Assembly: GCF_008728835.1 (NCBI RefSeq)
Contig: NZ_CP042582.1
Location: 868,001 to 932,000 of the forward strand
From: Hypericibacter adhaerens
Lineage (GTDB): Bacteria > Pseudomonadota > Alphaproteobacteria > Dongiales > Dongiaceae
DNA: 64,000 nucleotides
Direction of reading: 5' to 3'
In this document: piece by piece, positions 34,848-34,894 of the stretch
Numbering within the stretch: the first letter of the stretch is position 1
How the letters are laid out: every line of letters begins with the position of its first letter
The notes under the pieces: generated by a model
The model's database searches: none
What the model was told of the DNA's origin: nothing
What the model saw: only the letters and a program-made list of their open reading frames with translations
Made by a program: the position numbers and the translations under genes

Positions 34848-34894
34848 AGCATGGAGTCGCCGAGTCCGCCGGTCAAGAGTCTTTCTTTTGATTC
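34848..34894 (-). promoter_or_regulatory. ccrM promoter with four GANTC sites
   Basis: On the minus strand: TTGACC (34876-34871), 17-nt spacer, CATGCT (34853-34848); predicted start near 34841, leaving about 23 nt before the ATG. The spacer itself contains two GANTC sites (34854-34858 and 34862-34866). A third (34877-34881) abuts the -35, and a fourth (34890-34894) overlaps the rnhB stop. GcrA-type promoters of alphaproteobacteria carry methylated GANTC in or beside the -35/-10 region, so methylation feedback on ccrM is likely. Confidence 0.65.

Follow-up and report, generated by a model that had tools for sequence, protein, structure and literature searches.

The predicted promoter of ccrM in Hypericibacter adhaerens is built around putative target sites of the methyltransferase that the gene encodes. 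Within the window (the whole 64,000-nucleotide stretch analysed here, from a 5.87 Mb single-contig genome) we identified the minus-strand order GAATC-N8-GACTC-TTGACC-GGCGGACTCGGCGACTC-CATGCT between the end of rnhB (34893) and ccrM, GGCGGACTCGGCGACTC being a 17-nt spacer that itself holds two GANTC sites. Comparison with relatives makes it rather probable that this is a weak sigma-70 core promoter whose spacer and -10 edge serve as CcrM target sites and whose activity would be set by their methylation. The reading that we favour is that CcrM would control itself through a core promoter sensitive to methylation, with GcrA as an optional helper.

The ccrM locus and its promoter

Judged by its domains (N6_N4_Mtase and RAMA) and its nearness to Caulobacter CcrM, the predicted product is a CcrM-type methylase; its best solved relative is Caulobacter CcrM 6pbd (E 2e-155), although at 635 versus 830 bits it scores below the NCBIfam CcrM equivalog cut-off. 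Two start codons are candidates, ATG 34818 and ATG 34812, of which the latter is more likely because the sister species has ACG at the first ATG.

Four GANTC sites lie within 41 bp around TTGACC-N17-CATGCT (Table 1), exactly as the sequence-only reading had described them, and its placement of the sites relative to the -35 and -10 is also correct, given their fixed positions in relatives. CATGCT matches TATAAT at three of six bases and a simple sigma-70 scan called no promoter upstream of ccrM; the case for a promoter here is thus made by conservation in relatives and not by a consensus match. A short inverted repeat, CCCAA-GTT-TTGGG (window 34832-34844, minus strand), is found at the predicted transcription start and is kept only in part in the sister species.

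Table 1 Features of the rnhB-ccrM region in window coordinates
Feature	Position	Strand	Basis
ccrM, GANTC adenine methyltransferase (predicted)	33655..34818	-	Pfam PF01555 + PF18755 (N6_N4_Mtase + RAMA domains)
Predicted transcription start	34841	-	Inferred from -10 position, ~7 nt downstream of -10
-10 element CATGCT, pattern CANNNT	34848..34853	-	Sequence; column counts in 108 relatives
GANTC site S2 (GACTC), adjoins -10	34854..34858	-	Sequence; relatives
GANTC site S1 (GACTC), within spacer	34862..34866	-	Sequence; relatives
-35 element TTGACC	34871..34876	-	Sequence; distance to S1/S2 fixed in relatives
GANTC site U2 (GACTC), adjoins -35	34877..34881	-	Confined to part of the Dongiaceae and a handful of other genomes
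GANTC site U1 (GAATC), upstream of -35, over rnhB TGA stop	34890..34894	-	
rnhB, ribonuclease HII, upstream neighbour of ccrM	34893..35510	-	Pfam PF01351

Conservation of the layout across Alphaproteobacteria

The sample of ccrM upstream regions covers the family itself, the wider class at one or two genomes for each family, and a set of named genomes. In 137 deduplicated regions the offsets of GANTC from TTGAC gather at +8 to +10 (94), +19 (88) and -14 to -16 (77), while the largest control bin holds 9. Both core positions (+7 to +11 and +18 to +20) are occupied in 117 of 223 regions, compared with none of the 223 for any of seven composition-matched control words. The class sample without Dongiaceae has one or both core sites in 83 of 129 genomes (47 with the two together, 25 with the spacer site and 11 with just the one at the -10), and some ccrM promoters of the class are without any such GANTC sites. 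Conservation among relatives, on which the sequence-only reading had staked its claim, is therefore borne out, with positions kept across the class.

Where S2 stands at +19 (108 regions), position -11 is always A (108/108) and position -7 is T in all but one (107/108), so that in these regions a -10 element CANNNT begins, at -12, with the last C of S2. An upstream GANTC is present in 100 of the 117 relatives having both S1 and S2, and in 64 of the 117 it sits within a conserved TAA(C/G)-N-TGANTC element. Three sites (upstream, in the spacer and at the -10) are the usual state in relatives. The window and the sister species represent a variant in which S2 is one base further upstream, thus adjoining the -10 instead of overlapping it by one base as in most relatives, and in which an extra site adjoins the -35. 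The proposal that the layout is denser than usual does not hold, since three sites are common in relatives and the fourth recurs in several Dongiaceae.

A DnaA-box-like TATCCAC/TGTCCACA directly follows the -10, ~29 nt past TTGAC, in some ccrM promoters, mostly of Rhodobacterales (loci L044, L046, L053, L063 and L081 among them), and was counted in 15/167 promoters versus 1/167 control windows.

We consider it highly improbable that the layout reflects chance or mere common descent of the rnhB-ccrM gap. GANTC is ~2.6-fold rarer in the 64-kb window than dinucleotide shuffles predict (117 versus 307 expected). The earlier estimate of 0.25 sites per 75 bp agrees with base composition, but the observed frequency sets the background at a lower ~0.14 per 75 bp. 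If the 117 sites are scattered randomly over the 64 kb, a group of four within 41 bp arises somewhere with P = 0.0048, by itself a modest result since the spot had been picked by the first reading. The offset histogram of the 137 regions and the control words with their zero count rule out a chance cluster. Inheritance of the gap as it stands draws on the rnhB-ccrM gene order, kept in 128 of 142 loci; against this, the bases between the sites vary among relatives while GANTC itself stays, and the element remains with ccrM at four loci (L034, L041, L114 and L123) in which no rnhB was found immediately before it, which also rules out carry-over from rnhB. Elsewhere in the window, three GANTC fall within 36 bp at 61685-61720, between TetR-like and acyl-CoA dehydrogenase-like genes and with no TTGAC near.

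GcrA in the window genome and in relatives

The window genome encodes GcrA (PF07750 at 3527941, E 8.8e-39, both conserved ends). Its absence elsewhere was judged by Pfam, by our own profile of 12 GcrA proteins and by a degenerate DNA pattern for NAVIGKxHR. By these searches GcrA was undetected in seven genomes with promoter data and a completeness of 90 % or more (G045, G049, G058, G074, G081, G093 and G094). The profile gave a convincing score in none of the seven, and the DNA pattern, which matched exactly in every positive control, never did so in them; G049 has one match with two mismatches, and two-mismatch chance matches occur elsewhere too. G092 is likewise GcrA-negative and was left out of the promoter count. 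Those within the count lie far apart on the CcrM tree, which suggests several losses of GcrA.

Other GANTC promoters in the genome

The pattern TTGAC-N-GANTC-N-GANTC occurs three times in the window genome, at ccrM, at ftsB (DivIC family) and before a small ORF of unknown family. The ftsB promoter, TTGAC-N4..6-GANTC-N-TGTGATTC at genome position 2492170 (L206 471-497), lies directly upstream of its gene, with GATTC at the expected place of the -10 behind TGT, and a GANTC promoter at ftsB is common to many alphaproteobacterial families (loci L330-L359). The third occurrence, at genome position 3711756 (L207 457-480), precedes a 60-aa ORF, MFxRSVYLKLPFLGA..., of which the sister species has more than one copy (G001 L209, L216). 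Two Dongiaceae genomes carry TTGAC-GATTC-GAATC directly upstream of clpX (L172, L177 position 1501). Genome-wide, TTGAC-N2..18-GANTC was counted 176 times versus 70 for the control, an excess that is not usable because the reversed control word contains the rare CTAG.

The spacer GANTC of ftsB was found in 15 of 22 GcrA-positive but 1 of 7 GcrA-negative genomes (p = 0.026), the positive set having been partly picked for carrying ccrM sites; leaving out six genomes known beforehand as ftsB matches gives 9/16 versus 1/7 (p ~0.08, by hand). In the same genomes the ccrM spacer site is present in 16 of 22 and 5 of 7, respectively. The comparison is suggestive of an ftsB spacer site that is lost without GcrA while the ccrM site stays.

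Candidate readers of the methylation mark

The ccrM promoter could be a standard GcrA-dependent one, modelled on Caulobacter mipZ, podJ and ctrA P1, in which GcrA-sigma70 polymerase would be recruited to methylated spacer GANTC and activate ccrM in a positive feedback. Besides the presence of GcrA in the window genome, this draws on Caulobacter, where GANTC lying between the -10 and the -35 goes with S-phase activation (PMC4287350) and GANTC mutation cuts GcrA targets by 60-80% (PMC3667746), and on the similar layout of ftsB in the same genome, with its spacer site that tends to vanish without GcrA. Set against it is the retention of core ccrM GANTC in six of the seven genomes without GcrA detectable by sequence searches; GcrA presence is moreover rejected as a predictor of the ccrM layout, which was found in 39 of 57 genomes with GcrA and 7 of 13 without it or with a weak match (p = 0.35). 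YGAKTCK, an extended GcrA motif put forward for Caulobacter and not seen in Brevundimonas (PMC7987155), fits by inspection none of the four window sites on either strand, and among relatives it fits S1 in 48/85 but S2 in 8/85; with S2 and the upstream site seldom fitting, we rejected the motif as an explanation of the sites. A positive feedback on CcrM would also be hard to stop. We regard a standard GcrA-dependent promoter as unlikely. GcrA, which the sequence-only reading had brought in from Caulobacter and its relatives, would not be required for reading the mark, given the layout persisting without detectable GcrA and the misfit to YGAKTCK. Nor does the Caulobacter GcrA model carry over directly to ccrM, since PMC2217572 and PMC10073500 describe the Caulobacter ccrM promoter as CtrA-activated.

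A quite improbable alternative is that the sites protect or time the methylation of the locus, or bind a methyl-sensitive protein (MucR- or CtrA-like), instead of taking part in polymerase recognition. The TAA(C/G)-N-TGANTC element around the upstream site could be a factor site, and in a few lineages CtrA boxes stand in place of the GANTC layout. The fixed position of S1 and S2 relative to the -35 and -10 points instead to polymerase. Of the 145 regions in the class sample, 6 have a full TTAA-N7-TTAA CtrA box; none lies upstream of the window ccrM, where there is just a TTAACC half, so a CtrA box in the window was rejected. One lineage (L113, L228 and L087) has ccrM with a full CtrA box, TTAACTGGGGGTTAA, and GANTC sites around it but no TTGAC promoter, and may have exchanged the one mode of control for the other.

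Relation to known promoters

GcrA- and CcrM-dependent sigma-70 promoters of Caulobacter have reportedly been described by Fioravanti and by Gonzalez and Collier in 2013 and by Zhou in 2015. With such promoters (mipZ, podJ, ftsZ, ctrA P1) the window promoter shares GANTC in or beside the predicted -35/-10 and a genome that encodes GcrA. It differs in that the gene is ccrM itself, with at least two sites at fixed offsets, in that most relatives begin their -10 with the last C of a GANTC, and in lacking both YGAKTCK and an evolutionary dependence on GcrA, the layout being kept where GcrA is undetectable. The ccrM promoter of Caulobacter is alike in gene, in having more than one GANTC near the promoter and in its methylation sensitivity, predicted for the window promoter, whereas that of the window has no full CtrA box and places its sites within the spacer and beside the -10.

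CfrBI and LlaDII, cited in PMC3874152, are cases in which a methyltransferase gene is regulated through methylation of the enzyme's own site; the likeness is a target site of the enzyme in the promoter of its own gene, as at the window ccrM, and the difference is that these are restriction-modification systems while CcrM is an orphan cell-cycle enzyme with several sites at fixed positions. At the IS10 transposase promoter and the MamA promoters of M. tuberculosis an adenine methylation site likewise overlaps the -10, with a proposed direct effect on polymerase (PMC3701705); these involve other enzymes and motifs and no autoregulation.

GANTC in the Caulobacter ccrM promoter (PMC10073500) and methylase genes under their own sites (PMC3874152) were thus already known. 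A 2010 comparative survey of alphaproteobacterial promoters counted GANTC and drew no conclusion on methylation control (PMC2877005), and a study of Caulobacterales applied the extended motif, disregarding position within the promoter (PMC7987155). Among open-access papers, to which our search was confined, none was found on a fixed class-wide ccrM geometry or on its persistence without GcrA, and both appear to be new.

Proposed mechanism and implications

In the reading that we favour, RNA polymerase, aided by GcrA where present, would start well on hemimethylated sites just after the replication fork passes ccrM and more weakly once CcrM has methylated both strands, so that CcrM would be made in a replication-coupled burst and then shut off by its own product. 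The methyl state may act on polymerase directly, as at IS10 and as proposed for MamA (PMC3701705), or via GcrA (PMC3667746). The poor consensus match of the -10 and the ccrM promoters of the class that have none of the sites count against this reading. A feedback of CcrM on itself, as suggested by the first reading, is reasonable, and it may be a tight one. As to its sign, in Caulobacter a spacer GANTC is often the hallmark of a promoter that GcrA activates (PMC4287350, PMC3667746); on that pattern the feedback would be positive. We favour shut-off by full methylation because the Caulobacter gene is transcribed from hemimethylated DNA (Stephens et al., cited in PMC2217572 and PMC10073500) and the layout outlasts the loss of GcrA; provided that methylation matters at all, our analysis leans towards a negative sign, the least certain step of the scheme. 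The conserved layout makes it probable that CcrM gauges and restricts its own activity at this promoter.

A bolder version, which we hold only tentatively, is that of a class-wide, GcrA-independent sensor, in which polymerase itself reads adenine methylation at fixed positions in the spacer and at the -10 edge. If this is true, ccrM would fire only after replication and shut itself off, an ancient timer replaced by CtrA control in some lineages.

Little is known of the timing and limitation of CcrM outside Caulobacter, and CcrM sites stand at fixed places before ccrM in most families sampled. A ccrM promoter with fixed sites would provide both a simple circuit and a core motif. Genomes without GcrA are a natural setting in which to tell whether polymerase or GcrA reads the mark.
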